Assembly (NCBI RefSeq): GCF_900129195.1
Contig: NZ_FQUY01000001.1
Span: 124,001-188,000 of the forward strand
Source: Desulforamulus putei DSM 12395
Lineage (GTDB): Bacteria > Bacillota > Desulfotomaculia > Desulfotomaculales > Desulfotomaculaceae
DNA length: 64,000 bases
Direction of reading: 5' to 3'
How positions within the stretch are numbered: position 1 is the stretch's first letter; each line of letters opens with the position of its first letter. Positions 841 through 46,483 of the stretch are shown piece by piece. The position numbers and the translations under genes were made by a program. The notes beneath the pieces are model-generated. The model was not told the origin of the DNA. It did not search any database and saw only the letters and a list, made by a program, of their open reading frames with translations.

Positions 841-3800
841 ATGACCCACCTGAACTTACGGGAATATCCCTGGCGTCACCGCTATAGCTGGGAAGTGAGT
901 AATCCGGTAAAAGATTTCTATGTGCCGGCTCTCTCCCGCAGTGTACTGTACCAGCGCAAGGCCGGTTATTTCAGCAGTACTGCGCTGGCGGTGGCTGCCC
1001 AGGGGGTGGCCCGGCTCATTGCCAACGGCGGACGCATGCAGCTTTTAGTTGGCTGCCAACTGTCACCAGAGGATGTTCAAGCCATTCAGGAAGGATATGA
1101 TCTGAAAGAAAAGGTGGCCCAGAACTTACTGGACAAGTTCAACCAGCCGGTGGATCAGATTATGCAAGACCGGTTGGCCGCCCTGGCCTACATGGTGGCG
1201 AAAGGCACGTTGGAAATCAAAGTGGCCTTACCCACCGATGGCAACGGCCAGGTGGTAGCCAGTGACGGCGACGAAGGTATTTTCCATGAAAAGGTAGGCA
1301 TCTTTACCGATGCCCTGGGTCAAAAGCTGGCTTTTAGCGGCAGTATCAATGAAACCAAACAGGGTTGGTTGAAAAACCGGGAGAGTTTTCACGTGTTTAA
1401 ATCCTGGTCACAGGATGCAGCACACCTGGCAGAGGAAGAAGAGGAATTTCGTCTGCTCTGGCAGGGGGCCGGGCGGTATACCCTGGTGGTGGATTTTCCC
1501 CAGGCGGTAGAGAAGGAACTGCTGAAATACAAGCCGGAGGAGGAACCCCGCCAGGACCCGCTGGAAGTTAGCGAACCGGAAGAAGTGAAAACCGGTAACC
1601 CCGGTCTCCTCTGGCAGTTTATTAAAGATGCACCTTACCTGAAAAACGGGCATGCCCTGGCGGAGGCTTTCAGTACGGTGGACCCCTGGCCCCACCAGCG
1701 GCAGGTGGTCAACAAAGTGGTTGCCAATTATACCGGGCGGTTCCTGTTGTCCGATGAGGTAGGTTTGGGGAAAACCATCGAAGCTGGTTTGGTGCTCAAG
1801 AAGCTACTGCTTACCGGGCTGGTACGGCGGTGTCTCATTTTAACCCCCAAGTCGGTAATACGCCAGTGGCAGGAGGAATTGCGGGAGAAATTTAACCTGC
1901 ATATTCCCCGTTACGAGCAAAATGCCTTTTGGGATGCGCAGGGACGGCAAATACCGGTGCCGGGGGGCAATCCCTGGGACAGCACGGATGTGGCATTGGC
2001 TTCCTGCCAGCTCATGAAGCGTGAGGACCGCTGGAGCGAACTGCTAACAGCTGAGGATTGGGATTTAATCATCCTGGACGAGGCACACAACGCCCGCCGC
2101 AGCGGGGTGTCTAATAAGTACAGCGACCGCAACAAGTTGCTGCAGTTGATGGATCAGCTGGAGCGCAAGACCCGGGGGTTGCTGCTGCTGTCGGCAACAC
2201 CTATGCAGTTGGACCCGGTGGAGTTATGGGACCTGCTGGTAATTCTGGGTATGGGCGGTTTGTGGGGAGCCCGGGCGGAGGATTTCAAAAGATACTTCCT
2301 GGAAGTCCGAAAAATGCCGGAAGCCGGAGAAATTGATTTTCTCATTAAGATGCTGAAGGATTACCAACGACTGGCGGGTCCGGAGGCTGATCTCTGCCGA
2401 CTACCTGGCGACGATAACGTGGGGTTAATTACCAGGCGCAAGCTGGCAAGCCTGTTCCAAAGCAATGTTCCTGCGCTGGAATATAAATCTCTTAATCAGA
2501 AGGATAAGGAAGTCTTAACTAAAATCCTGTCAAGCAACACACCCATCAAGCATTTTATGTTGCGCAACACTCGCAATGTGTTGCGATATTACCAAAAGAA
2601 AGGTTGGCTGGACCAGAACATTCCCAACCGGGATGTAAAAGATGTGTTTATTGATCTTGATCCGGTGGATGAGAAACCCCTTTACGATCGGATTGAGGAA
2701 TACATCAGCAAATATTACAAAAAGGCGTTGGAAGAAAAACGAAGCGGCCTGGGTTTTATTATGACCATTTACCGCCGGCGTCTAACCAGTAGTTTTTTTG
2801 CCATTACCAAAAGCCTGGAGCGCAGGCTGGCGTTTCTTAAGGGAGATGACACGGCTGCTCAGGAATGGCTGGATGAACTGGAAGAATTGTTTGATGATGA
2901 ACGACAAGAGCTCAGCGAGGACAGTAAAAAATTACTGGATCAGAGGGGAAATGCCGATGAGGAAATTGAATTTCTGGAGAATTTCCTCTACGACCTGCAA
3001 TCTTTAGGCAAAGATTCTAAATATGCGCAACTGGATAACCACTTGCGGGACTACCTTAACCGCCATTCTAAAGTAATTATTTTTACCCAGTACACCGACA
3101 CCATGAGGTACCTAAGGGAGCAATTGCAGTCCTACCGCAACCGCCTGGCCTGTTATTCAGGCGATGGGGGTGAATATTGGGACGGCCATAGCTGGCGGTT
3201 GACCACCAAAGAAGATATTAAGGAAAAGTTCGCCGCCGGGCAATACCAGATTCTTCTCTGTACGGACGCTGCCAGTGAGGGTTTGAACTTACAGACTTGT
3301 GGTCTCTTGATCAATTACGATATGCCCTGGAACCCCATGCGGGTGGAACAGCGCATCGGCCGTATTGACCGCATCGGCCAGCAGTTTAAAACAGTGGAAA
3401 TCCTCAACTATTTCTACAAGGATACGGTGGAGGAAACCATCTACCAACGCCTTTCACACCGCATCGGTTGGTTCAACCAGGTGGTGGGGGAACTGCAGCC
3501 CATCCTGTCCCTGGGTTCCCTGGCGGCCAAAATCCCGCTGGCCATTAAAAAGGTGGCCATGTCCGGGGGAGAGGAAAAGGAAGCGGTGTTGGCAGAAGTG
3601 GTGGCCGACCTGTTGGAAGAGGCTGAGAAGGCGAAAGATAACGCCATTAATTTGGATATTTATGCCCAGCAGCTCAGCGTTGTACCAGAGAAGCAACGAC
3701 CGCCGGTGACCCCTCTGGAGTTAGAAAGAATTTTTACAGCCACACTTTTGCCGGAGGGAGTATCCCTCCAGCCGGGGCAGGAAAAAGGTGTTTACCTTCT

Positions 3801-4488
3801 ATCGTTTAAAAACCAAAGCTATAGAGTTACCTTTAATCCCAGGGTGTACGATCGAAGACCAGACAGCGTAAAACTATTGGCCTATGGGGAACCGCTTTTT
3901 GAACAATTGCTAAATGGGATCTCTTTGGAACAGACAAATCCGTTACCAGTGGTCAGGATAGAGGCAGCACAGGATCCACCCCTGGTGGGATATTTCTATA
4001 AAGACGAAGCAAACCAGTGGCAGGAGATCACCAATGCCACACAATACCAGGAACTGGTCAATGGTAACGGCCAGGTAGAAATAACAGAAGAGGAAAGAGC
4101 GGAGTTACAGAACCGTTTGATCAGAACCAGAGCCAGTGAGCTTCAAGTTGCAGCACAAATCCCGGCAAAACGCAGGCAGGAGCGTCTGGCAGCGGTCCGG
4201 GAGAAGGCGCGGCAGATTTTATATAAGCTGCTGTGTTATGAAGCGGTCCGCCAGGATACCCTGAATGTGCAAAAAATACTGGGGCCCAAAATTCAAAGGG
4301 GAGATATTCACTATGGTCCTTTGCTCAAACTGGCGCAGACATCTCCGGCCAACATCAAACTCAACGCTGCAGAGGTGGCCGGGTATAAAGGAATGAAACC
4401 AGAAGCACTGTCAGCTAAAACCGGTGCCCTGTACATAGAGGCAGAGAATCTGGTGAAGGAGTACAAGTATTTAACGGGGAGTTTTTAA
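841..4488 (+). CDS. PLD-nuclease/SNF2-helicase fusion, probable defence effector
   Basis: A 1215-residue protein. Residues about 30-220 form a phospholipase-D-like nuclease domain with one HxK motif (FHEKVGIF, His149 and Lys151) followed by SGSIN. A SNF2 motor follows: Walker A GLGKT with Lys311, DEAH at 413-416, LLLSATP, then a helicase-C domain with IIFTQY, SEGLNLQ and a final RIGRIDRIGQ arginine motif. The tail from about 940 is charged and unassigned. All core helicase motifs are intact. Single-HKD PLD domains usually work as dimers. With the DUF1156 methylase just upstream this resembles DrmD-like SNF2 proteins of DISARM-type systems, where the motor acts on foreign DNA. Domains are certain; the system assignment is inference because upstream partners lie outside the window. 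Confidence 0.85.
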   Translation: MTHLNLREYPWRHRYSWEVSNPVKDFYVPALSRSVLYQRKAGYFSSTALAVAAQGVARLIANGGRMQLLVGCQLSPEDVQAIQEGYDLKEKVAQNLLDKFNQPVDQIMQDRLAALAYMVAKGTLEIKVALPTDGNGQVVASDGDEGIFHEKVGIFTDALGQKLAFSGSINETKQGWLKNRESFHVFKSWSQDAAHLAEEEEEFRLLWQGAGRYTLVVDFPQAVEKELLKYKPEEEPRQDPLEVSEPEEVKTGNPGLLWQFIKDAPYLKNGHALAEAFSTVDPWPHQRQVVNKVVANYTGRFLLSDEVGLGKTIEAGLVLKKLLLTGLVRRCLILTPKSVIRQWQEELREKFNLHIPRYEQNAFWDAQGRQIPVPGGNPWDSTDVALASCQLMKREDRWSELLTAEDWDLIILDEAHNARRSGVSNKYSDRNKLLQLMDQLERKTRGLLLLSATPMQLDPVELWDLLVILGMGGLWGARAEDFKRYFLEVRKMPEAGEIDFLIKMLKDYQRLAGPEADLCRLPGDDNVGLITRRKLASLFQSNVPALEYKSLNQKDKEVLTKILSSNTPIKHFMLRNTRNVLRYYQKKGWLDQNIPNRDVKDVFIDLDPVDEKPLYDRIEEYISKYYKKALEEKRSGLGFIMTIYRRRLTSSFFAITKSLERRLAFLKGDDTAAQEWLDELEELFDDERQELSEDSKKLLDQRGNADEEIEFLENFLYDLQSLGKDSKYAQLDNHLRDYLNRHSKVIIFTQYTDTMRYLREQLQSYRNRLACYSGDGGEYWDGHSWRLTTKEDIKEKFAAGQYQILLCTDAASEGLNLQTCGLLINYDMPWNPMRVEQRIGRIDRIGQQFKTVEILNYFYKDTVEETIYQRLSHRIGWFNQVVGELQPILSLGSLAAKIPLAIKKVAMSGGEEKEAVLAEVVADLLEEAEKAKDNAINLDIYAQQLSVVPEKQRPPVTPLELERIFTATLLPEGVSLQPGQEKGVYLLSFKNQSYRVTFNPRVYDRRPDSVKLLAYGEPLFEQLLNGISLEQTNPLPVVRIEAAQDPPLVGYFYKDEANQWQEITNATQYQELVNGNGQVEITEEERAELQNRLIRTRASELQVAAQIPAKRRQERLAAVREKARQILYKLLCYEAVRQDTLNVQKILGPKIQRGDIHYGPLLKLAQTSPANIKLNAAEVAGYKGMKPEALSAKTGALYIEAENLVKEYKYLTGSF

Positions 4489-10506: not shown

Positions 10507-12141
10507 ATGCCGCGCATTAAAAACGAATTTGATGAATTAAAAGATCTCACTGAGGATTACTGGAGTAAACTGGAGAATAACCTGGATGATCAGGTAACGG
10601 TTATGCTTAAAACCTATATCCCCAAACTGCTGCCCCGGGAGATGGAGCAGATAAAAAAGAACAGCCCGCCGCAGCAGGCAAAAACACTGGTTTTGCTGGT
10701 GGGCTTTTCCTGGGAACCCCTGCTGCAGGCCGTCTGCCACTACCGGCCGGAAAAGCTTTACCTGCTGTTGAATGCCAAGTACGGTGGAGAGAGTGCGGGA
10801 GTCGTTTTCCAGAAGCTTGAACAACTGATAAACAAACTTTCTGAAAGCAAATTGATAGAAAAAAAGCCGGAGATAAAGCCCACGGAAATTGATGCGGCCG
10901 GTGCCGGACCGGTGGAAGTCTTTCACCAGTTGACCCAAATAATTAAGGAAGAGGGAGAGCAGCCACCGGTCAGGGGAAAAGAAAGCCTGCCGCTGGTGCT
11001 GGACATTACCGGGGCCAAGAAAAATATGGTGGCGGCTGCCTTTTTGTTTGCTGCGCTGTCGGGGACGGCGGTTTCTTACGTGGACTTTCCAGACGATGCC
11101 TATAGCCCTGAAAAACGCCGTCCTTACGGGTACCGCAGCAAGATTGCCTTAATTGACAACCCCTATACCTTTTTTGCCATGGGCAAATGGCTGGAAGTGC
11201 GGCAGCTTTATAAGCAGTATAATTTTAACGGCGCGATTAAACTGGTGGATGAAATTAAAAAATCTATGGATAAAGGGGATGAGTGGTCGGGCCGGAAGTA
11301 TTTCGGCGAAACGGGGGAAAAGGCCGTGGACAGGCTTTTGCGCGTGCTGGAGTGTTATGAATGCTGGGAAAGCGGTAATTTTAACCGGGCCAGCGAAATA
11401 TATGAAGGTATAAAAGGTGAAATACCCGGTTTCAGGCGGCCTCCCGATGCGGTGAAAATCCTGGGCGGCATCTGGTATGAGGTGCAGGGGGCGAAATTTG
11501 TTAAAAAACCGGGGCGTTTTTACCTGGAACCGCAGCTCTTCGATACCTATATCTGTGACGAACTCCGCCGCATCGAACGGATGATTGAATATAAAGAAGA
11601 TTACCGGGCGGCCTTTTTGCGGGCAGCCGGCTTGAGCGAGGTGGTGCTCAACCTGTGGCTCCTGTCCCTGCTGGACGGCGAGGAAGACAGAAAAAAGGCC
11701 CTGGATTTCTGGGGCGAGGCGGACGGGGAGGATGGCCGGTCGCCCAATGCCTCTAAATCTTTTAAGAAACTTACGGCAGGGGGAACTTTCAAAATGAAAG
11801 ATCTTGGCGGAAAAAATCCGCCTGATATTACCTTCAACAAAGGGTCAAAAAAAATCCCTCGCTGGTGGAATAGCACTGCCTTCTTTAAAGATCGGGGAGA
11901 CAGAAAAGGCTGGAAGATTTTTCTCGACTGCCGCAACAAGATAGCCCACCGCTACTACTCTATTCCAGAGGAACTGGCCAAAGACGCCCTTTTATTTGCC
12001 CGGCTGAATTACGAGAGTTACCGTCAGGATAACCGGATGCCGGATTCCGCAGTTTTTGCCGAGATAATCCCTTGGCCGGAACTGTGCGGGCTATGCGGCC
12101 TTAAGGAAATTCTGCCGCCCCCGGTAACCGGGGATGAGTAA
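10507..12141 (+). CDS. CARF-HEPN ancillary RNase of the type III CRISPR operon (TIGR02710/Csx1-Csm6-like)
   Basis: 544 residues. Residues about 55-220 are a CARF domain: TLVLLVGFSWEPLLQA as the first strand-loop, and VLDITGAKKNMVAAAFLFAAL as the ligand-binding turn typical of cyclic-oligoadenylate sensors. The long helical middle leads to a C-terminal HEPN domain with the RNase motif CRNKIAH (Arg476, His481; R-x4-H). The expected role is non-specific RNA cleavage after binding cyclic oligoadenylate made by the Cas10 encoded 20 bases downstream. First gene of the operon, with GGTGAGGG just before the ATG. Ring size of the ligand cannot be read from sequence. Confidence 0.85.
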   Translation: MPRIKNEFDELKDLTEDYWSKLENNLDDQVTVMLKTYIPKLLPREMEQIKKNSPPQQAKTLVLLVGFSWEPLLQAVCHYRPEKLYLLLNAKYGGESAGVVFQKLEQLINKLSESKLIEKKPEIKPTEIDAAGAGPVEVFHQLTQIIKEEGEQPPVRGKESLPLVLDITGAKKNMVAAAFLFAALSGTAVSYVDFPDDAYSPEKRRPYGYRSKIALIDNPYTFFAMGKWLEVRQLYKQYNFNGAIKLVDEIKKSMDKGDEWSGRKYFGETGEKAVDRLLRVLECYECWESGNFNRASEIYEGIKGEIPGFRRPPDAVKILGGIWYEVQGAKFVKKPGRFYLEPQLFDTYICDELRRIERMIEYKEDYRAAFLRAAGLSEVVLNLWLLSLLDGEEDRKKALDFWGEADGEDGRSPNASKSFKKLTAGGTFKMKDLGGKNPPDITFNKGSKKIPRWWNSTAFFKDRGDRKGWKIFLDCRNKIAHRYYSIPEELAKDALLFARLNYESYRQDNRMPDSAVFAEIIPWPELCGLCGLKEILPPPVTGDE

Positions 12142-12161
12142 AGAAATGGAGGGGTGCTGGG

Positions 12162-13790
12162 ATGGCCGGAGAATACCTGCTGGCAGCCGAGGCCGATAAG
12201 ATCCAGGACTTCATCTTCCGCGCGTCGCAACTGCAGGAAGTGGTGGGGGGCAGCCAGATTTTAAGGCGTTTTTGTGAAGAAGTGCCGGAGTATTTGCGTC
12301 CCAGGCCGGCAGAGGTGGTGGTGGCCGGCGGGGGCAGCTTCCGCCTGCTCTTTAGCAGCAAGGAAGAGGCAGAGCAGTACGGCGAGCGCCTGGCCGAAAT
12401 TTACCAGCGGGCCACCGGCGGGAGCCTGACGGTGGCCGATCCTGTTTCTGTCGACGGCAATTTCCCGGAGGCAGCCAGCAAGGCTGAAAAATTGTTGCGC
12501 CGGGCGAAAAACCGGCGCGGCGGCGCCTTTTCGCCGGTGCAGATGCCCTATGTGGCTTTTTGTTCCGTTTGCGGCGTGGGCCTGGCCAGGGCCTGGAGGC
12601 AAGAGGGGAAGGGCGGGGCGCGCTCGCAGTACCTCTGTGCCTCCTGTCTGAATAAAAGCAGGGAGCGAGAAGACGGCAGGGGGGAATTTTTGAGTAGCTT
12701 TTACGGCGGGGTGCTGGATGAAAAAGATCTTTCCCGCTACCGCTGGCCGAAGCAGGCTAAGGATGTGGCCTGTTTTGACCAGCGGCGCCACCTGGCCTAT
12801 CTCGTTGCCGACGTCAACAACATGGGCCGGCTCTTCAACAGGTGCGACCGGGCGGAGATGAAAGAGCTGTCGCAGAACATGGAGCGCATCTTTCATGAGA
12901 GCCTGCGGGAGCCGGTTAAACAATTGATGGAGCGCGCCGGCGATGATGGGAAAAAACTGAAAGAAAATTTTATCCCTTTTTTGCCCCTGATCCTGGGGGG
13001 AGACGACCTCTTCGCTCTCCTGCCCGCTCCCTGGGCCCTGGACTTTACCGGGAAATTTGTCAAGAATTTCAACGAGAGAATAAGAAAGTTCGTCCAGGAC
13101 GGGCTCATGATGGAAGAAGCGGCGGCTCCGACCATCAACGCGGCCGTGGTCATCTGCAAGGAAACCTACCCCTTTTCCCTGGCCCACCGCAGGGCCGAAG
13201 AGTTGCTGGGAAAAACGAAGCGCCTGGCGGTGTCCCTGCAGTACGAAGAAGGCATTAACTGTTCAGCCGTGGATTGCGAGCTGATCAGCGGCAGTTTCGC
13301 CGGGGAGGAAGTAGAAGCCGGGAAATTCCGCCCCTCCCTGCGGCCGTACCTGGTGCCCGCGGAAGGGGCGAGGGGCGTTCCGACCGGTTGGGGTGCGGAC
13401 CTGGCCGATCTGATTCAGGCCAGGTATGATCTGGCGGATTTGCCGCAAAAGAGGCGGGCGCGGTTGCGGGAAATTTTCCACCTGCCGGTTGCGGGCAGCA
13501 GGGAGGTAGAGAAAACAATCAACCGGGCGCTGCGCGAGTTTGTCGTCCGCACGCAAGAGGTAATGCCTGCAGGGTCCGGAAAGGAAAATGGGCTGGCCGC
13601 CAATTTATGCAGGGCTTTAAAATCGCTCGGCGGTGGGGCGGAAGACCGGGAAGATGAGTTCCTGCGGAAATTCGGGCGCCTGCCGAAGGAAAAGGCCGAG
13701 TTCGGACACGGCATGCCGGACCTGCTGCGGTTCTGGGATTTTACCTTTGCTCTGGATAAAAAACGCAGTGATTATGAAAGGGGGCGGTAG
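12162..13790 (+). CDS. cas10: Cas10, HD-less, with intact cyclase palm (type III-D variant)
   Basis: 542 residues. The N-terminal region is palm-like (ADKIQDFIFRASQLQEVVGGS, the usual Cas10/Cmr2 start). A zinc finger follows with Cys134, Cys137, Cys159 and Cys162. The second palm has VADVNNMG and the catalytic LILGGDDLFALL (GGDD at 279-282). The last 150 residues are helical and Cas11-like in position. There is no HD nuclease domain, so DNA cleavage by Cas10 is not expected, while cyclic oligoadenylate synthesis should be possible. It stops two bases before the next gene. The small size and missing HD agree with III-D-variant Cas10 proteins. Confidence 0.92.
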   Translation: MAGEYLLAAEADKIQDFIFRASQLQEVVGGSQILRRFCEEVPEYLRPRPAEVVVAGGGSFRLLFSSKEEAEQYGERLAEIYQRATGGSLTVADPVSVDGNFPEAASKAEKLLRRAKNRRGGAFSPVQMPYVAFCSVCGVGLARAWRQEGKGGARSQYLCASCLNKSREREDGRGEFLSSFYGGVLDEKDLSRYRWPKQAKDVACFDQRRHLAYLVADVNNMGRLFNRCDRAEMKELSQNMERIFHESLREPVKQLMERAGDDGKKLKENFIPFLPLILGGDDLFALLPAPWALDFTGKFVKNFNERIRKFVQDGLMMEEAAAPTINAAVVICKETYPFSLAHRRAEELLGKTKRLAVSLQYEEGINCSAVDCELISGSFAGEEVEAGKFRPSLRPYLVPAEGARGVPTGWGADLADLIQARYDLADLPQKRRARLREIFHLPVAGSREVEKTINRALREFVVRTQEVMPAGSGKENGLAANLCRALKSLGGGAEDREDEFLRKFGRLPKEKAEFGHGMPDLLRFWDFTFALDKKRSDYERGR

Positions 13791-13792
13791 AG

Positions 13793-16219
13793 ATGGCGGT
13801 GGAGCTGACTTTTGAGCTGCAGTTACTGAGCCACTACCATGTAGGTTCGGGATTTGCCGGGGAAATCGACTCTTTTTTACTGCGCGATGGTGACGGTGTG
13901 CCGGCAATCCGCGGCACGACCCTGGCCGGTCTTTTGCGGGACGGGCTGGAGCGGTTGCTGCAGATGCCGGCGGTGCGGCAACGGTACGGGGAGGGCGCGC
14001 GGCATCCTTTGGGCGGCGGATACTGCAGCAGCGGCGCTTCCTGCCCGGTATGCCGCCTTTTCGGCACGCCTGCCGGACCCGGGCTGTGGAAAATTTCTTC
14101 GGCGCGGCCCGGAGGTCTGGAAAGGCCGGCGATGGAAATAAAGGACCGGTTTGCTGCCGTCCACCGGGTGCGGATAAATTACGCCGCCCGCCGGTCCCAG
14201 CCGCGTTCCCTGTTTTCACTGGAGCGGGGCGACCGCCGGCTGGCCTTCGTTTTTACCGCGCAGAGCGCAGCCGGCCGCGAGGTGAACGTGGAAGACGTGG
14301 CCCTGCTGGTGGCTGCCGCCAGAAATGTGCGGCACCTGGGGAGTTCCCGCCGGCGCGGCTGGGGAGAGTGCGTGATCGGCCTGCGGGGAATACAGGGCGT
14401 GGAAGATGCTGGTTTCCCGGCAGAACCGGCAAAGGTACAGGAGCACTTTTGGGAACGAATTCTTGCTTTCTGTGCCGGGGAAATTGAGCGGGATGTGCTG
14501 TTGACGCCGGTTAACAGGGCCGTTGAGAACAAACGGTCTTTGCCGGACCCGGTCTCCCTGCTGAAAGAGGCCCTGCGGCAGCCGGAGGAACCGCAGGTGA
14601 TCAGGTTGCTGGCCCGGGCCGCGGAGCCCCTGGTGCTGGCCTGCCGGGCAGAAGCGGGAAACATGTTTGAAAGTGTGCAGGCGGTGCCGGGCAGGGCCAT
14701 TTTCGGCTCCCTGATCCGGCGGGCGGCAGAGCAGGTGGGAGACAGTTTGCTGCCGGACCTGATCAAAGAGCTCTTTTTTACCGGGGCGGTTGTCTTGTCG
14801 CCCCTCTGGCCGTGTTTGAAAAAGGATACCCTTGTTTTCCCCGGCCTGCCCGTTCCCAGGGATACGGGCATGTGCAAGTATTTCTCCGGATATAACGGCC
14901 ATGACAAAGAAGAGAGGGGGTTGTTTCTGCTTGCTTCAATAGACGGGCCGGGGGATGAGTACTGCCCCCAATGCTATGGAATCTATGAATTACGAGATAG
15001 CAAGGTTGAGACGCCGCTTGTGGCCGGCACCGGTTTTGTGGCGGTTCACGAAAAACCGCGTAAAATAGAAATCACCCTGGCACCGGAAATGCATGTGAGT
15101 ATAGACAATGGGACCGGCCGTGCCCTTCCGAGACAGCTTTTCGGCTACACCGCCCTGCCTGCCGGCACCTGTTTCTGGGGCGAGATCTGCTTCCGCAGCA
15201 GGGCGGTCTGGGAGTGCTTTGCAAAAATATTCAATCTTGGCGAGGACAGGGCCTTTTCGCTTAAAGTGGGCAAGGCGGCCGGGCGGGGTTACGGCACCCT
15301 GCGCTTACACGCCGGCAGGCTGCAGAGGGCGGAGGAGCGGGAGGGCTTTAACAGTCCCCTGCGCGAGAGGGTGAAAGAAGGAGAAGAAAGAATCAGGTTC
15401 ACCTTTATCTCCGACACCGTTTTCGTGGATCAGTGGGGGCGCTATTGCTGCGAGCCGGATCAGCGCTGGCTGGAAAAAATCCTGGGCTTTCCAGTGGAAG
15501 TGGAAGATGAAGATGTTTTTGTCTGTGCAACTGAGCGGGACGGGTTTAACCGGCTGTGGGGCCTGCCGGATCAGCGCAAGGTGATAATCCAGGCAGGGTC
15601 CACCTGGCGGCTGAAGGTGCCGGGCGGTGTGAAGAAAGAAATGCTGGACCGGATGTGCCGCCTGGAGGCGGCCGGGGTGGGTGAATACCGGTGGGAAGGA
15701 TACGGCCGGGTGGCCTTCAACCTGCTGGAGGAAAAGATCCAACTGCCTAAAACCGGCGTCTCTTTACCCGAAGAACTGCTCACAGAGCTGCTCACCGATA
15801 CGACGGATCATTTTATGCGGCGGGACAGCGCATGGAGCCGGGAAGTTAATGAACTGCTGGATAAAAGATTGGACGAGGTTGTAAAGGAATGGCCGGGGGG
15901 AGAGAGAAAGCAGCTGGCCCTGCTGGCCCGCTGGCTGTACCGGCAGCGCCATTGCCCTGTGGAAGAACTGGAAGAAAAGCTTTCCTCTATGGGCTGGCCG
16001 TCTGAAAATATCATTAAGTATTTGAAAGATTATTGCGATCCCGGGCGGGAGAACAAGATCTGGCCCCCTGGCAAGGGACAAGACCGGCTGAAGCGGCTTC
16101 AGGAACTGCTAGAGGAACTGGCCGGAAAATCCAGAAACAGCTGTGAGTTTACCAGGGCAGTGGAAGCGCTGGCCGGCAGGCTGGCCGGCATAGGTGCCGA
16201 TGTAAAGGAGGAGGTATAA
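13793..16219 (+). CDS. Cas7-Cas5(Csx10)-helical fusion subunit of a III-D-variant complex
   Basis: 808 residues in three parts. Residues 1-235 are a Cas7/Csm3-like RAMP: HVGSG, then EIDSFLLRD with Asp26 aligned to the Csm3 catalytic aspartate, RGTTLAGLLRD, a CPVCRLFG zinc motif, and RRRGWGE. Residues about 270-650 match Csx10 (Cas5-like): RQLFGYTALPAG, AAGRGYGTL, then FNRLWGLPDQ and WEGYGRVAF. Residues about 660-808 are helical and charged, fitting a Cas11-like small subunit. This order equals the Cas7-Cas5-Cas11 fusion of the cyanobacterial III-D variant (III-Dv). Presumed role: crRNA 5'-handle binding plus one target-RNA cleavage site. The Cas11 label is by position only. Confidence 0.85.
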   Translation: MAVELTFELQLLSHYHVGSGFAGEIDSFLLRDGDGVPAIRGTTLAGLLRDGLERLLQMPAVRQRYGEGARHPLGGGYCSSGASCPVCRLFGTPAGPGLWKISSARPGGLERPAMEIKDRFAAVHRVRINYAARRSQPRSLFSLERGDRRLAFVFTAQSAAGREVNVEDVALLVAAARNVRHLGSSRRRGWGECVIGLRGIQGVEDAGFPAEPAKVQEHFWERILAFCAGEIERDVLLTPVNRAVENKRSLPDPVSLLKEALRQPEEPQVIRLLARAAEPLVLACRAEAGNMFESVQAVPGRAIFGSLIRRAAEQVGDSLLPDLIKELFFTGAVVLSPLWPCLKKDTLVFPGLPVPRDTGMCKYFSGYNGHDKEERGLFLLASIDGPGDEYCPQCYGIYELRDSKVETPLVAGTGFVAVHEKPRKIEITLAPEMHVSIDNGTGRALPRQLFGYTALPAGTCFWGEICFRSRAVWECFAKIFNLGEDRAFSLKVGKAAGRGYGTLRLHAGRLQRAEEREGFNSPLRERVKEGEERIRFTFISDTVFVDQWGRYCCEPDQRWLEKILGFPVEVEDEDVFVCATERDGFNRLWGLPDQRKVIIQAGSTWRLKVPGGVKKEMLDRMCRLEAAGVGEYRWEGYGRVAFNLLEEKIQLPKTGVSLPEELLTELLTDTTDHFMRRDSAWSREVNELLDKRLDEVVKEWPGGERKQLALLARWLYRQRHCPVEELEEKLSSMGWPSENIIKYLKDYCDPGRENKIWPPGKGQDRLKRLQELLEELAGKSRNSCEFTRAVEALAGRLAGIGADVKEEV

Positions 16220-16222
16220 ACG

Positions 16223-18022
16223 GTGGAGGCTTATAAAGTGATTACTGCCGAACTGGTTATATCCTGCGCCCTGCACCTGGGCAGCGGCGAGGCCGGCGAA
16301 GTGGCGGATGCCCTGTTGATCCGCGACGAGCGGGGAGCGGTCTACCTGCCGGGAACCGCCTTGGCCGGTGCCCTGCGGGAGAAAATGACCAGGCTGGCCC
16401 CCGGGCTGGGATGGGAGGCCTGCCGGACTTTGGCGGGCGGCCGCGGCATCTGCGGCTGTCCTGTCTGCCGGCTGATGGGGGAAATCAATTCCGCTGAAGA
16501 GGAGGAAGCCGGAAGTCCTATGGATCGGGCAGGCGGCCGGGGGCCGTCAGCCTCCCGGCTCTACGTTTATAATGCCTTTTTGAAAGAGGAGAGCCTGCCA
16601 GCCGCCATCCGCGACGGGGTGGGCATTGACCGGGTCACCGGCACGGCGGCCAGGGCGGCACGGGCTAAGTTTAACCTGGAGGTGCTGCCGCCGGGGGCGG
16701 TCTTTTCCCTGCGTCTGGAGCTGCGCGGTGTGGACGAAGCAGGCGAGCTTCTGCTGGCGGCGGCCCTGGCCGAATGGCAGGAAGGGCGCGGCCGGCTGGG
16801 CGGGCGGGTGACCAGCGGCTTGGGTGTTTTTCGACTGCGCTCTTTGGAAATGCGGGAGCTGGATCTGGGCAGGGTGGAGGACGTGAGGAAATACCTGGCA
16901 TCAGACCGCCCCTGGGAGGTGGCCGGAGTGCGTAAAGGCTGGCTGGACGTTAGCCTGGAGAGTGCCCGCCGGAAGGTGAGTTCTGCCGGCGGCGCCGGCA
17001 GGGATGGCGGTTTGCGCCTGTGGTGCTCTTTTGCGGGCCGGCTGCAGTTCACAGAAGGCATGGTGGTGAGCGACCCCCAGGCCGTGCTTTATGGTTTTGA
17101 CCATGTTCCCCTGACCATTGCCTGGGACCAGTGGGACCTGCCGGTGCTGCCCGGTTCGGCGCTGAAAGGGGTGATCCGGGTACGGGCGGAAAAGATCCTG
17201 CGCACCATCTGGAGCATTAAAGCACAGCAGAAAAACCCCGGCAACCGCCAGAAGCAGGCGGAATATTTTAAAGCCTTTTGCCCGGCCTGCGACCCGCTGC
17301 AGAGATTGCCGGAGAAGCCGCTGGCCGCCTGTGATGCTCTGTTGACAGAAGCCGGGTTCTCCGGGCTGGATATAGCGGAGGAAGAGGACCTCTGCCTGGC
17401 CTGCCGCCTCTTCGGCAGCACCCGCCGGGGCGGCCGGCTGTTTGTTTCCGACGCCCTTTTTAGCCAGACAGACTCCCGGCCGGAGGCCGTATTGAAGCTT
17501 TTTGACTTCCTGGCGGTGGACCGTTTTACCGGCGGGGGCGCCGGGAAATTGAAATACGATGCCGTGGTCCTCTGCCGGCCCCAGTTTGAGCTGCACCTCT
17601 ATATTGAAAACCCCCGGCCCTGGGAACTGGGCCTTTTGGCCCTGGTCCTGCGCGATTTCGCCTGCGAGAGTGTCCGGGTCGGCTATGGCGGAGGGAAGGG
17701 CTTTGGTCTGGCCAGGTTGACCGGCGGCGAACTGACCGTGGGCTATCTCCAGGAAAAGGATCTGGGTACTATAAATTTATCTTCGGCGCAACAGCCCACG
17801 GCCCGGAAGACCTGCAGGGGCATTTTCAACTGCTTTACCCTGCACGTGCCCGAAAGCCTGCCTCTTTTCCTGCCGGCGGTTAATGGCTGGATAGAAGACC
17901 TGTACCGGCAAGAGGTATCCAGGCAGGACAGGGAAGAAAAGCGGCTGCCGCCTTTGCTGAAAGATTACTATTTTGACCGGGAAGAACTTTGGAAACTCTA
18001 TCCACTGGAGGTGCAGTTATGA
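16223..18022 (+). CDS. Double Cas7 (Cas7-2x) RAMP subunit
   Basis: 599 residues from GTG 16223, just after AAGGAGG. Domain one (1-220) has HLGSG, VADALLIRD with an aspartate in the Csm3 catalytic position, PGTALAGALRE, a CGCPVCRLMG zinc motif and RLGGRVTSGLG. Domain two (270-510) has LPGSALKGVIR, paired zinc motifs CPAC and CLACRLFGS, VDRFTGGGAGKLKYD and GGGKGFGLARL. Two complete RAMP folds in one chain match the Cas7-2x subunit of III-D-variant complexes, contributing two backbone segments along the crRNA. Domain one looks catalytic; domain two lacks the same aspartate spacing, so I would not assume it cuts. Its TGA overlaps the csx19 ATG. Confidence 0.87.
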   Translation: MEAYKVITAELVISCALHLGSGEAGEVADALLIRDERGAVYLPGTALAGALREKMTRLAPGLGWEACRTLAGGRGICGCPVCRLMGEINSAEEEEAGSPMDRAGGRGPSASRLYVYNAFLKEESLPAAIRDGVGIDRVTGTAARAARAKFNLEVLPPGAVFSLRLELRGVDEAGELLLAAALAEWQEGRGRLGGRVTSGLGVFRLRSLEMRELDLGRVEDVRKYLASDRPWEVAGVRKGWLDVSLESARRKVSSAGGAGRDGGLRLWCSFAGRLQFTEGMVVSDPQAVLYGFDHVPLTIAWDQWDLPVLPGSALKGVIRVRAEKILRTIWSIKAQQKNPGNRQKQAEYFKAFCPACDPLQRLPEKPLAACDALLTEAGFSGLDIAEEEDLCLACRLFGSTRRGGRLFVSDALFSQTDSRPEAVLKLFDFLAVDRFTGGGAGKLKYDAVVLCRPQFELHLYIENPRPWELGLLALVLRDFACESVRVGYGGGKGFGLARLTGGELTVGYLQEKDLGTINLSSAQQPTARKTCRGIFNCFTLHVPESLPLFLPAVNGWIEDLYRQEVSRQDREEKRLPPLLKDYYFDREELWKLYPLEVQL

Positions 18023-18627
18023 GGCAAGGGAGAGTGGATTTCCGGGAGCTGGCCGGAGGTGTGATGCGTGAAGGAGCGGAGGTGGGTGAGGAACAGTTGA
18101 CCGTGTGCGGAAGTGAAATATCGATGGAAGGCTGGCGGGCCGCCTGGCCGGATCTGCGCAGGGTGATGGGGTTTAAATATGCCGTTCTGGCCTGCCTGGA
18201 AGAGATAAAGTTTTTAAAGGCTGGGTCTGTTGACCGGTGGCCGGACGACCTGCTGTGGGCGCGCGTATTCGGGCCGGGAGGTGATTTTTACTGCTGGAGA
18301 GACGGCCCGGGCCGGCTCAGGTGGCGGGTGATCGGCCCGCCGGGGCTTGAGCTGCCCGGGAACCTGGGACCGGGGAAAAGTTTGTGGGAGGAGGAGAAGA
18401 AGGCAAAATTTTTCGTAAATGAAGAAGCATTTCTTCTCTGGGGACAGTATGATGGGAAAGCGGAAGCGTGGCAGGAAAGGCGTGTGGCGGCGGCCGACCT
18501 GAAGTATCCGGTTGACTTTAAAGGGCGGGTGAAACTGCTCTGCCGCGTCTACAGCCGCAGGGGCCGTGTTGAACTGGTATGGTACTGCGATCTGGTTGAG
18601 GAGGGAGAGAAAAATGCCGCGGGGTAA
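18019..18627 (+). CDS. csx19: Csx19 family protein (TIGR03984-like)
   Basis: 202 residues from ATG 18019, which overlaps the previous stop as ATGA. The pattern FGPGGDFYCWRDGPGRLRWRVIGP, spread over residues 72-97, and the later AFLLWGQYDG resemble the Csx19 family, found only in III-D loci. No catalytic motif is visible. Csx19 is a structural or regulatory subunit of III-D-variant complexes. Its place between the double Cas7 and the Cas7-insertion genes matches the cyanobacterial gene order. Family call is by pattern, without a profile search. Confidence 0.75.
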   Translation: MRQGRVDFRELAGGVMREGAEVGEEQLTVCGSEISMEGWRAAWPDLRRVMGFKYAVLACLEEIKFLKAGSVDRWPDDLLWARVFGPGGDFYCWRDGPGRLRWRVIGPPGLELPGNLGPGKSLWEEEKKAKFFVNEEAFLLWGQYDGKAEAWQERRVAAADLKYPVDFKGRVKLLCRVYSRRGRVELVWYCDLVEEGEKNAAG

Positions 18628-21139
18628 GATTATCAATTATAGTCCGGGAAAGAACAGGGGCAGGCTTAAGGATAACCTAACCGGCGCAATGCTGGATTTT
18701 AAACTAATTAACGTGGACAGATCCTCCCGCGCCTTTCTTTCCGCGGGGAGGGAAGTGGAATATGATTTGAGCCCGGATGGCCGGGTGTGCCGGGTCAGGG
18801 TGGTTGATCCGTATGTAAAGAAAGAGCAGCCGGAAAGCGCCGGGGCTACAGACAGAGGCGGCAGAGAAAAAGGCAAACCGGAAATTGCGCTGCCAGAAGC
18901 CGGGCCGGTTTTTTCTGTTTGCGGAGGGGAAATGGAAGGAATGCTGTCCGAAGAGAAAGCAATGGAATACCTGAAGCGGGCCGGCCTGGGAGATATACTG
19001 GCCGGGCAGGCGCAGAGTGCCGGGACACAGGATGGAAACCAGTTTTTAAACCCCTACAATTTTGTCCGCTACCTGGACCAGCCGGCGGAAGCCGCAGGCG
19101 GGCCGCATCTGTTCTGGCGCTGCCAGCCGCCGCCGCACGACCGCTTTACCGGGCTGTCCGGCCGGATTACCTGCCGCCTGGTCAATATAACGCCGCTTTT
19201 TATTTCTGATTCCCACGGTATCGAGGAAGACGGGCAAAATGACGGCCACAAAAAATACCGCTTTTTCCAGATCGACGGCCGCAAACTCATTCCCGGCAGC
19301 AGCCTGCGGGGGATGGTGCGCTCGGTTTACGAAGCTGCCACCAACTCCTGTTTTGCAGTCTTCGATGACAGGAGGCTTTCCTACCGGAATAACCGGTACT
19401 CTGCCTGGCTGGTGCCGGCCAGGATCGAGGGAAGCCGGGAAGAAGGTTTTAAGCTGAAACTTTTGCCCGGGCGGGAAAACATGATAATTTATCCTGACCC
19501 CAGGCGGTATTTAAATGAAAATTATCCCAAAAGCAAAACTCAGTATGCCGGCTGGCTGTATTCGTTCTGGCCTCTTGAGCCAAGCAAGACTCTAAAGCAA
19601 AAGAACGACGAATTCGTGCACAGCCGGAGGGGAAAAACACCGCCTGCACTGCCGGAAGACACCGGCCACGGCAGTGAATGCTGGGCTATTTTAAAAAAGA
19701 GAAGACACAGCCACCCCAATATAACTTTTTACGACGTGGTGGAGATTGAAGCTCCGGATAATGAGCAGGCCATTAAAGAGAAATATAATGAGCTTAAGAT
19801 GGGAAAAGGCGATTTTATATTAACGAAAGGTTATCTATGCAAAAACAACCAAAACATCGAGTCCAAGCATAGCGAGCGCTTTTTTTTCGATAATTCCGGG
19901 CAAAATTCCGGGCAAGAAATAAATCTGCCGTTAGAAAAAGTAAAAGAATTCGAAAAGTTGATTGCCGAATATGCAGACAGGCACTGCGAGCGGATTAAAA
20001 AGCTGCAGGACCCGCAAAAGCCGCTTGAATCAAAAAAAGAAGGCGAAGGTAAACACGCAGCGTACAGCCGGTTTATCGTGAAGGGGTGTTCGAAAGGATA
20101 TAAGGTTCAAGACGGCGAGCTGGTCTACGCTCTGCTTGCCGGATCTGCCGACAGTCCGGATGTGGTTTTCCTGGCACCGGTGCTGGTGCCCCGCGTTTTT
20201 CACGAAAAAAGTATGCGCGAACTGCTGCCCAAATACTTGCACAAGTGCAAGAAAATAGAAGTACTCTGCCCCGCCTGCCGTCTTTTCGGCTGGGTTGGCG
20301 GTAATGATAAAGACCGTCCAAATGAAGGCCACCCGGCGGACAGCGCTGTTGCTTTTGCCGGCAGACTGAGCTTCAGCAGCGGCAAGATGATTTACGACAG
20401 CGGTGAAGAGGGGGAGATAACCCTGGCCATCCTTTCTTCCCCTAAACCCACCGCCACTTCCTTTTACCTGTTGAACAGGCAGAGCAAAAAGCCTTCCGGG
20501 GATTTAAAATATGCTGAAGAGGCCGTTTTAAGGGGGCGGAAGTTTTACCTACACCACGGGGCCGGCCCTTCCAGGCACCCAGACGGTTACGAATATGAGC
20601 GCCCTGAAGGGAAGAAGGATAATCAGAACCGTACCGTGCGCAATGCCGTAAAACCAGGCGCCGTTTTTGAATTTACCGTGGATTTTGAGAGCCTGGCCCC
20701 TGCGGAGCTGGGTGCCCTGTTGTGGTCTCTCCAGCTGGAAGAAGGCATGTATCACCGCCTCGGCTATGCCAGACCGCTGGGCTTTGGGTCGGTAAAGGTA
20801 ATTGTTGAAAAAGTCGAGGTTTTTGACCTGAAAAAGAAGTACCTTTCGTTAACTGCTTACGAGCAGTATGCGCTGGCTTTGGACCGGAAGCAGATCAACG
20901 AAAAGATTGACCGCTTCAAGTCTGAAATGAAAGATTTATACGGCAGAGAATTTGGAGAGCTGGAAAACATCAAAGATCTGCAGAAAATTTTAAGCACGCC
21001 TCCCCTGCCTAATATCCATTACCCGCGGCTGGAAAGAATTCCTGATCCAAAAGGGGAGAACTTCAGGTGGTTTATAAATAAAGGTAAACAGAAACAGCCC
21101 TTGCCGTTGGCCGGGGAAGACAGGGGATTGTGTTACTGA
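18614..21139 (+). CDS. Cas7 with large insertion (TIGR03986-like RAMP), OB-like N-terminus
   Basis: 841 residues from ATG 18614, overlapping csx19 by 14 bases with GAGGGAGAG just upstream. Residues 1-65 ([17 protein letters not shown], then [17 protein letters not shown]) look like a cold-shock/OB-type domain. NPYNFVRYL marks the TIGR03986 start, followed by the RAMP with [11 protein letters not shown] and [14 protein letters not shown] long lysine-rich insertion (about 330-510) precedes [11 protein letters not shown] and [12 protein letters not shown]. In III-D variants this protein caps the Cas7 backbone. An IS21 remnant begins within the last codons, so the final few residues ([10 protein letters not shown]) may be partly junction-derived. 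The body looks intact. Confidence 0.82.
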
Positions 21140-43935: not shown

Positions 43936-44208
43936 TTATTTTACACCAATAATTTCTTTGATGTCATTTACCACCGGAATCATTTGTTCTGTCAGGTTCT
44001 CTAACTTGACTAATAATTGCTGGATCTTTTCCACCTTCTCCTCCGCCTTCTGTATGGTGGCTGCATCCCAACGGGGGAAAAAACCACCCCTGGCCGCCAG
44101 AATCTGGCGTCTTAAGGACTTGATTTCAGCTTCACATAATTGTTTTAACTCCTCAATCTCCTTGAGCATCGAAGAAACACCTGCCTTTTTTCCCATAATA
44201 TTACTCAT
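43936..44208 (-). CDS. Small coiled-coil protein of unknown function
   Basis: Up to 90 residues. Residues about 14-45 (MLKEIEELKQLCEAEIKSLRRQI) and 50-80 (AEEKVEKIQQLLVKLENL) have heptad-like leucines, suggesting a helical hairpin or dimer around RGGFFPRWD. No ribosome site is clear before ATG 44208; ATG 44169 (residue 14) has only a weak GCAGGTG upstream, so the start is uncertain. No family recognised. It diverges from the repeat-protein gene. Confidence 0.55.
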   Translation of the reverse strand: MSNIMGKKAGVSSMLKEIEELKQLCEAEIKSLRRQILAARGGFFPRWDAATIQKAEEKVEKIQQLLVKLENLTEQMIPVVNDIKEIIGVK

Positions 44209-44347
44209 TGATTTATTTGGTGTTTCTTAGTATAAAGAAAAAATTAAATTTACCTGTCTGAAAATTTTAAAAACGAAAATCTTTACAGGACTTGATTAAT
44301 ATACTGTTTTAAAAATGTTAAAGGCCAAAAGAAAAGGGGTGGACTTT

Positions 44348-45376
44348 TTGGCTAAGAAAAGAAAAAGAAATGGGAAGATATGCAAGGACCAAATCAGGAG
44401 AAATAATAAAAATAATAAGAAAGAGATTATATTATTTACAGCAGCCGGTGAGAAAGTGATGGTCTCGGATTTTACCTGCCTGTCTAAGAAGAGACAAAAA
44501 CAAACCTGTGAGGCCTTCGTTCATACAACTTGCATTCAGGAACAACTTTCCCTGCCGTTGACCCGGGGGGCCTGTACAGTTGCCCGCAGGGAGATAAAGG
44601 TAAAAAGCCCGGGTAAACATGAATCCTCTCTGAAATCAAAGAAATTGCATAAAAGAAGAAGGTTCAGCGGAAAAACAGAGTTTGTCCCGGCAAGCTGTAT
44701 CACCGGTCAGATTTCCCAGGGCTATCCCAATAAACCTCCGGCAAAACAAAACAAACCGGTACACCCTATGATCTCCGGCCAGGATTCTTCCTCTTATGAA
44801 ATTATTTTGGAAACCGGTAGAAGACGTAGAAGAAAAACAAAACCGGTGGAATTTGTTCCTGGCAGTTGCATCACTTTGCATACTGCTCCGGTTTATTCCT
44901 TTGCAGTACAACCCATAACACAGGAGTTTGTCAATCCCTATCCGGCTTTGCCGGATTTGGCCCCGGACATTACAGGCGGCTGCCGGACCGGCCGTGCAAG
45001 ACCAATGGCCCCTTTCCCGTTCATACCTGAAAGCTGCATTACCGCCGATGTGTCCAAACCCTATCTCCCCGTTGAAAAAACAGAGGAAAAACCTGAAACT
45101 GTTCACCGATATATAGACCGCCCCAATAGTCCGGACATCCTGGGCCCGGCAAGTAAAAAATTCAAAAGAAAGAGAAACAATGTAGTTCCTTTCGTTCCCA
45201 AGAGCTGTACCATTGACACAGAAAAGCCGGCCCCGGGGACTTGCCAAAGAAGTGATGTGCTGGCAAAACCGGCTCCGGCTTCCTTGCCGTTCAAAACCAT
45301 CACCAAGCCCTGGCTGCCCGCGGCGGTCCTTGTACTGGTTGTTTTAACAATAATAGGATATTTATTGTATAAATAA
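44348..45376 (+). CDS. Unrecognised tail-anchored repeat protein with FVPxSCIT motifs
   Basis: 342 residues from TTG 44348, after AAAAGGGGTGG; an ATG 11 codons earlier lacks a ribosome site. The protein contains five copies of the motif [FI]-[VI]-x-x-[ST]-C-[IT] (FVHTTCI, FVPASCI, FVPGSCI, FIPESCI, FVPKSCT) spaced 55, 57, 56 and 57 residues apart. Most are preceded by a Lys/Arg cluster such as RRRRRK or KRKR. Proline-rich linkers fill the rest. The C-terminus is one hydrophobic helix (AAVLVLVVLTIIGYLL) with three residues after it, a tail anchor. There is no signal peptide, so the bulk is probably cytosolic. Basic blocks could bind nucleic acid or lipid; single conserved cysteines could bind metal or form disulphides. 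No family known to me. Confidence 0.65.
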   Translation: MAKKRKRNGKICKDQIRRNNKNNKKEIILFTAAGEKVMVSDFTCLSKKRQKQTCEAFVHTTCIQEQLSLPLTRGACTVARREIKVKSPGKHESSLKSKKLHKRRRFSGKTEFVPASCITGQISQGYPNKPPAKQNKPVHPMISGQDSSSYEIILETGRRRRRKTKPVEFVPGSCITLHTAPVYSFAVQPITQEFVNPYPALPDLAPDITGGCRTGRARPMAPFPFIPESCITADVSKPYLPVEKTEEKPETVHRYIDRPNSPDILGPASKKFKRKRNNVVPFVPKSCTIDTEKPAPGTCQRSDVLAKPAPASLPFKTITKPWLPAAVLVLVVLTIIGYLLYK

Positions 45377-45589
45377 TTTCAATGCTGCAGTGCCTGGGCG
45401 TTAAAAAGAAAAAATCCTCAATTACTCCAGTGTAAGGTTTCAACTATATTTTTTACATGGGATAGCAACATTGGTTTCTGCTTATACTGCAAATAGACCA
45501 AGATAACTTTAATTTTTCGCCATTTTTGCCCCAGTATACGAAATAATGCCTCTCATATACTAATAATAAAGGAAGGGGTGATAGAGGAG

Positions 45590-46483
45590 ATGAATCAATG
45601 CCTCTCCATAGGAGCCACCCAGCATATCGACTTGTTGAAGGACCTGCTTGGCAGAGAGCTGCGCATAAACGAAGGCGACCATATAAACATTAAACTTATG
45701 GAAAACCCCGCAGGCAATATTACGTTTTTGTCCTGTAACTTCAACGGAACGCTATGCGGTGGCAGCCGGCTTGATGATGAACTGTTGTTCAGGCACTTTG
45801 TGGCCGATATTATTTCGGATCTCATAATAAATCACTGGGAGAAGGCTATTTTAGCAGACATCATTCGAGAGAACTATTACTTTTTTAATGAAGAAGAGAA
45901 AAAAATCATCTACCAATATGCCCTGGATTACGCCAATGGCGAAAGGGTCTTTCCCGGCAGAATGGACCGGCTGGACAGAAAAAACTTTATCATCAAAAAA
46001 CTGGTGGAGTTTCTGGAGCAAAGTGACAGTATTGTCATTGACGGCTTTATCAATTTTCGCCTTAAAGAATATTTAAATGAAATAAAAGAAGCTTTGGATC
46101 AAGCAGTGGACGATTACTTAATGGAGCGTGAGTATCGGGAGTTTATTCAACTTCTTAAGTATTTTGTGGAGATTCAGGAGCCGAAGGTTGAGCTGGTCAA
46201 TGTTTTAATAAATGCAAGGGGATCCTATAAACTTCTTGATGAACAACACAACCCCATCAGCAGTGAATTCTTGGAAGGATTTATTTTGGATGTAATGGAC
46301 CATGAAATTAATTATGAGGATTTACTTATCAGCGCTTTGATTACCATCGCTCCTAATAAAATAGTTTTTCACGGTGGCAGCCAGAGTAAAAACGGGACCA
46401 CCGTCAGTACCATCAGGCATGTTTTTGAAGGCAGGGTAACCGAATGCAGTGGCTGCAAATTATGTCAGAAGCAGCAGCAATAA
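45590..46483 (+). CDS. ytxC: Sporulation protein YtxC family
   Basis: 297 residues from ATG 45590; AAGGAAGGGG lies 11 bases upstream and an in-frame GTG at 45578 is too close to it. The conserved YtxC block is FINFRLKEYLNEIKEALDQA followed by VDDYLMEREYREFI and NVLINARGSYKLLD. No signal peptide or membrane helix. The extreme C-terminus carries CSGCKLC, a possible metal site. B. subtilis ytxC is linked to sporulation, mechanism unknown. Confidence 0.87.
   Translation: MNQCLSIGATQHIDLLKDLLGRELRINEGDHINIKLMENPAGNITFLSCNFNGTLCGGSRLDDELLFRHFVADIISDLIINHWEKAILADIIRENYYFFNEEEKKIIYQYALDYANGERVFPGRMDRLDRKNFIIKKLVEFLEQSDSIVIDGFINFRLKEYLNEIKEALDQAVDDYLMEREYREFIQLLKYFVEIQEPKVELVNVLINARGSYKLLDEQHNPISSEFLEGFILDVMDHEINYEDLLISALITIAPNKIVFHGGSQSKNGTTVSTIRHVFEGRVTECSGCKLCQKQQQ

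Follow-up and report, generated by a model that had tools for sequence, protein, structure and literature searches.

The locus examined here raises the question of what kind of protein repeats a short cysteine-bearing motif five times along its chain and ends in a membrane helix. It lies in a window of 64,000 nucleotides, the whole stretch of DNA analysed, from the 3.1 Mb genome of Desulforamulus putei DSM 12395. The initial annotation had described a tail-anchored protein with five FVPxSCIT repeats at a 56-residue period, belonging to no recognised family, and had suggested a membrane-tethered metal, redox or nucleic-acid-binding array, perhaps on the forespore. The features of the locus are collected in Table 1.

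Table 1. Features of the repeat-gene locus, with a remnant of the gene in a related genome. Positions are those of the window unless a contig is named.
Feature	Position	Strand	Basis or remark
90-aa helical ORF, divergent	43936..44208	-	Conserved neighbour, retained where the repeat gene is lost
Presumed promoter, conserved block GAAAATT..AAAAA...AA.ATCTTT-N11-TTAATATACT	44260..44305	+	Aligned in seven Desulforamulus genomes
Shine-Dalgarno sequence AAAGGGGTGG	44333..44342	+	Kept before TTG in 7/7 homologues
Tail-anchored repeat protein, 342 aa, TTG start	44348..45376	+	ORF and homologues
Motif copy 1, FVHTTC, degenerate	44516..44533	+	Residue 57; full form FVHTTCIQ
Motif copy 2, FVPASC	44681..44698	+	Residue 112; full form FVPASCIT
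Motif copy 3, FVPGSC	44852..44869	+	Residue 169; full form FVPGSCIT; Cys invariant in alignment A3
Motif copy 4, FIPESC	45020..45037	+	Residue 225; full form FIPESCIT; Cys invariant in alignment A3
RPNSPDILGP, upstream half of last repeat unit	45119..45148	+	Mean column identity 0.89, seven homologues
Motif copy 5, FVPKSC	45191..45208	+	Residue 282; full form FVPKSCTI; alignment A3 is invariant at F, V, P, S and C
C-terminal membrane helix, residues 322-340	45311..45367	+	Hydropathy; AlphaFold2 helix 322-341, block pLDDT 71-93
Conserved sigma-G-like site GTATAC-N14-CATATACTA	45534-45562		Ahead of ytxC
ytxC	45578..46483	+	PF08812, TIGR02834
Repeat-gene remnant in genome G006	L024:7147-7425		Single motif (FAPASCIDAQISLP) and a stretch resembling a membrane helix, stops between

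The TTG is taken as the true start because the Shine-Dalgarno sequence and the TTG stand at the identical place in an upstream alignment of seven genomes. A longer form starting with the ATG at 44315 was rejected, as the leader there merely happens to be open. The five copies lie where they were first placed, 55, 57, 56 and 57 residues apart; measured against the FVPxSCIT consensus, two are exact, two near and one loose. The protein holds four matches to the pattern F[VI]Px[ST]C, compared to 0.0007 expected from composition-preserving shuffles (maximum of 1 in 100,000). Most copies do follow a basic cluster, with 4, 8, 7, 3 and 6 basic residues in the 20 positions before copies 1 to 5, and the protein as a whole carries 62 lysines and arginines versus 27 acidic residues. 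The C-terminal anchor is likewise borne out by a 19-residue stretch (Kyte-Doolittle mean 2.49) followed by just two residues, YK. The description of one cysteine per repeat is true of the motif but not of the protein, which has 11 cysteines in total; those outside the motif are not conserved.

A search with the single sequence found the gene in seven of nine Desulforamulus genomes (34-48% identity) and, among 113 genomes of the order, no homologue outside this genus. A search with a profile of the family added four further homologues, from a second family within the order (hereafter f7). These are only 21-24% identical to the window protein and share its plan: the N-terminus is very basic, FVPxSCII recurs along the chain, the linker contains ALA, and the C-terminus forms a membrane helix. 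Weak single-motif matches in other genomes of the order, which were short frames or held a single copy, were taken as chance, and 398 genomes drawn from the phylum yielded no members beyond those already known. Genome contigs searched with the single protein gave nothing; searched with the alignment, they gave D. aeronauticus, D. aquiferis and one MAG. The phage, plasmid and viral collections held no match to the repeat protein, and an origin of the gene from such elements was rejected on this ground. That the family is unrecognised was also upheld. For the window protein Pfam offered no family at E <= 1, and for its relatives just scattered single weak matches; NCBIfam offered none (best E 0.077, with 11.9 bits where the cut-off is 627), and a profile of alignment A3 matched no PDB sequence at E <= 1. 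A scan of the region against Rfam gave no element. The safest statement is that these proteins, tail-anchored and probably disordered, form a narrowly distributed, undescribed family that bears a cysteine-containing linear motif in several copies.

Conservation of the motif in homologues, on which the initial annotation had staked its case, is strong. The 11 homologues together hold 56 copies, with F in 51 at position 1, P in 45 at position 3, S in 43 at position 5 and C in 53 at position 6, followed by I, V or L and then T or I. The three remaining copies have Ser in place of Cys and are the first copies of three homologues. The motif hexamers are far better conserved than the linkers (mean column identity 0.84 vs 0.48 in Desulforamulus and 0.75 vs 0.38 over all 11 homologues), although copy number ranges from three to six and spacing from 38 to 60 residues. 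Thus the regular 56-residue period stands only in part. The last two spacings fall between 50 and 60, and only the C-terminal copies hold about 55 (final spacing 54-60 in every Desulforamulus homologue and 55 in every f7 homologue), so that the period is partly family-wide and partly a coincidence of the window member. The repeat unit consists of a basic block and then F-V-P-x-S-C-I-[TI], often with I-[IL]-G-P ahead. Such residues precede 10 of 18 copies in f7 (0.15 expected from shuffles) and 6 of 38 in Desulforamulus (0.36 expected). Because both counts exceed the shuffles, the full unit, presumably the ancestral one, is I-[IL]-G-P, basic block, F-V-P-x-S-C-I-I. The gene is coding and evolves fast, yet under constraint: between the two closest homologues dN/dS is 0.34 overall, 0.22 in the motifs and 0.36 in the linkers, compared to 0.04 for ytxC.

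AlphaFold2 models of the window protein built from 7 or 11 sequences have a mean pLDDT of 46 and 51 and a pTM of 0.14-0.15. Their single confident element is the C-terminal helix, joined by a three-residue helical turn at copies 3-5 in one model and 2-5 in the other. The chain outside the membrane helix is probably disordered according to these models; low pLDDT obtained from just 7-11 sequences is compatible with disorder and does not prove it. With a C-terminal helix, two residues after it and no signal sequence, the protein has the properties of the C-tail-anchored class. The helix is intact in six of the seven Desulforamulus homologues and is found in f7 too; in the D. aquiferis genome (G002) it lies in a different frame, and the same assembly also breaks ytxC. 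Its charge and the lack of a signal peptide suggest a cytoplasmic topology with the basic chain inside. The C-terminal anchor is shared with Tat-integrated tail-anchored proteins, but these have an N-terminal Tat signal peptide (PMC10924467), and none is seen in the repeat protein.

Beyond the repeat, its conservation, the membrane helix and coding under selection, all of which are observed directly, we infer multivalent binding and the existence of one partner. We favour, at somewhat less than an even chance, a cytoplasmic, membrane-tethered scaffold of multivalent linear motifs. Conservation of motifs whose number and spacing vary is typical of short linear motifs carried by a disordered chain. 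This combination, the lower dN/dS of the motifs, the disorder-like models with one C-terminal helix and the lack of any known folded domain speak for the scaffold. The helix would be inserted post-translationally and the basic chain would stay inside, its disordered part being flexible and offering docking sites, three to six in number and nearly identical. Each site would comprise a basic block and F-V-P-x-S-C-I-[T/I], to which the fullest units add the upstream I-[IL]-G-P. The partner would be folded and probably forms oligomers or a lattice; bound many times at low affinity through these sites, it would be gathered at the membrane. Anionic lipid, nucleic acid or polysaccharide may in addition be bound by the basic blocks.

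In principle such a protein would resemble CsoS2, the disordered scaffold of the alpha-carboxysome, whose repeated short motifs (VTG triplets, Tyr, Lys and Cys pairs) bind folded partners multivalently (PMC11365436); here, multivalent binding is proposed. The two differ in that there is no sequence relation, and CsoS2 is a protein of about 90 kDa with Cys pairs and with Rubisco and shell proteins as partners. Membership of the CsoS2 family was rejected, the motif FVPxSC having one Cys and the neighbours being ytxC, thrS and infC instead of carboxysome genes. CsoS2 is also not known to have a membrane helix.

The charge of the chain allows another explanation, a protein that tethers ribosomes, RNA or DNA to the membrane, in which the basic disordered N-terminus does the binding and the tail the anchoring. 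The excess of basic residues and the basic clusters before most motifs agree with it, and so does the overall plan, which is that of the E. coli proteins YqjD, ElaB and YgaM (cytoplasmic N-terminal region, C-terminal membrane helix, no signal sequence), of which the C-tail-anchored YqjD binds ribosomes (PMC6389858). However, F-V-P-x-S-C is kept too tightly for charge alone, and the repeat protein shows no Pfam match whatsoever, to that family or any other. The E. coli proteins have about 100 residues and are not known to carry FVPxSC repeats. We consider such a tether quite unlikely as the main function; nucleic-acid binding as such is possible, judging from charge.

The cysteine is more troublesome for the scaffold, as its near-invariance exceeds what a docking motif needs and suggests a chemistry that a scaffold leaves unexplained. 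Its presence in nearly every copy could indicate a metal-binding or redox array, but this is highly improbable: the cysteines stand singly, about 55 residues from one another, in a chain that is probably disordered; no further ligand is conserved, three homologues have Ser in the first copy, and the cysteines elsewhere are not conserved. Of the array first suggested, the membrane tethering is supported and the metal or redox function is not. Alternatively, the repeats could be many acceptor sites for S- or O-glycosylation or another Cys modification. The conserved Cys and Ser and, in four genomes, the adjoining sugar-modifying enzymes speak for such a substrate; the lack of the glycan cluster in the window genome and of any modifying enzyme conserved beside the gene in Desulforamulus speak against it, and we regard it as very doubtful.

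Where and when the protein acts can be approached through its promoter and neighbours. The Desulforamulus gene order is small divergent ORF (no family assigned by Pfam or NCBIfam), repeat gene, ytxC, a DUF445-like membrane protein, thrS and infC. The element ATCTTT-N11-TTAATATA occurs once per Desulforamulus genome. In eight of the nine it stands at the repeat-gene locus, even in G007, where the gene is lacking; the sole match in G006 sits at another locus. Use of the promoter block as a regulon marker was rejected, since no second gene has it in these genomes. In a sigma-G scan the block reached a mean of 7.7 of 11, below shuffles (8.2), compared to 9.9 for ytxC and 10.0 for the SASP controls. 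All promoter scores refer to presumed consensus strings. Against sigma A, F, G, H and K the block did no better than shuffles, and against sigma E slightly better. The suggested forespore location is thus unsupported, as the block is unique to the locus and unlike the sigma-G-like sites that the same scan finds for ytxC and SASP genes; the window gene may instead have a mother-cell role.

Such a role would suit a structural protein of the spore coat or forespore surface, placed on the outer forespore membrane from the mother-cell side and either cross-linked into the coat through Cys or Lys or anchoring coat or surface glycan. SpoIVA and SASP genes mark all 11 genomes tested as spore-formers (nine with the gene, two without), and the neighbour ytxC belongs to a sporulation family; the B. 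anthracis ytxC mutant has rounder spores (PMC12700454). In f7 the upstream region of the gene has a sigma-E-like score above shuffles (12.0 vs 10.5), and the gene is transcribed divergently to a probable surface-glycan cluster of eight genes. The latter encodes a Gfo/Idh/MocA oxidoreductase, a FemAB-like protein, a CgeB-like glycosyltransferase, LpxC, a DegT aminotransferase, WbqC, an ATP-grasp protein and a 176-residue protein of no assigned family. Glycan clusters with a Gram-positive LpxC homologue and the CgeB-like transferase were seen at loci L071, L072, L073, L074 and L107-L111. Of the order's 113 genomes 11 have such a cluster, and six of these genomes are among the 11 with the repeat gene (Fisher p 7e-5, relatives counted as independent). 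Against the coat stand the Desulforamulus promoter, which matches no sporulation sigma consensus, the loss of the gene from two spore-forming Desulforamulus, and the cluster itself, which is missing from five of the seven gene-bearing Desulforamulus genomes and present in five genomes without the gene. We rate a coat protein as unlikely. A strict partnership with the LpxC/CgeB-like cluster was rejected from this phylogenetic profile, the window genome itself having no cluster. Small LSm-like ORFs were seen by eye near the cluster in L108 and L109.

It is conceivable, if rather improbable, that the favoured scaffold represents a new membrane-anchored class, in which docking units made of I-[IL]-G-P, basic block and F-V-P-x-S-C organise how the spore envelope or surface glycan is assembled within a single order of spore-formers; the conserved Cys would then either lock this assembly or be modified. 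The interest of the protein lies in a sharply conserved short motif within a probably disordered, membrane-pinned chain of an undescribed family; we know of few bacterial scaffolds of such design. The repeat motif offers an immediate bait for finding the partner. The repeat gene is dispensable, because two Desulforamulus genomes, G006 and G007, carry mere scars of it (in G007 promoter and leader sequence of about 85 bp, the coding region being gone). Both retain the divergent ORF and ytxC, which lies downstream of the locus in every Desulforamulus genome, and these losses in two sister species with intact neighbours are natural knock-outs.

Elsewhere in the window, positions 10507-21139 hold type III CRISPR effector genes for a CARF-HEPN Csx1, a Cas10 with LGGDD and three large RAMP proteins of the Cas5/Cas7 kind (III-D-like), some of which contain several Cas7-like segments. 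At 841-4488 lies a gene for a 1215-residue phospholipase-D and SNF2 helicase protein that resembles the BrxH, DrmD and PLD_Helicase defence models.
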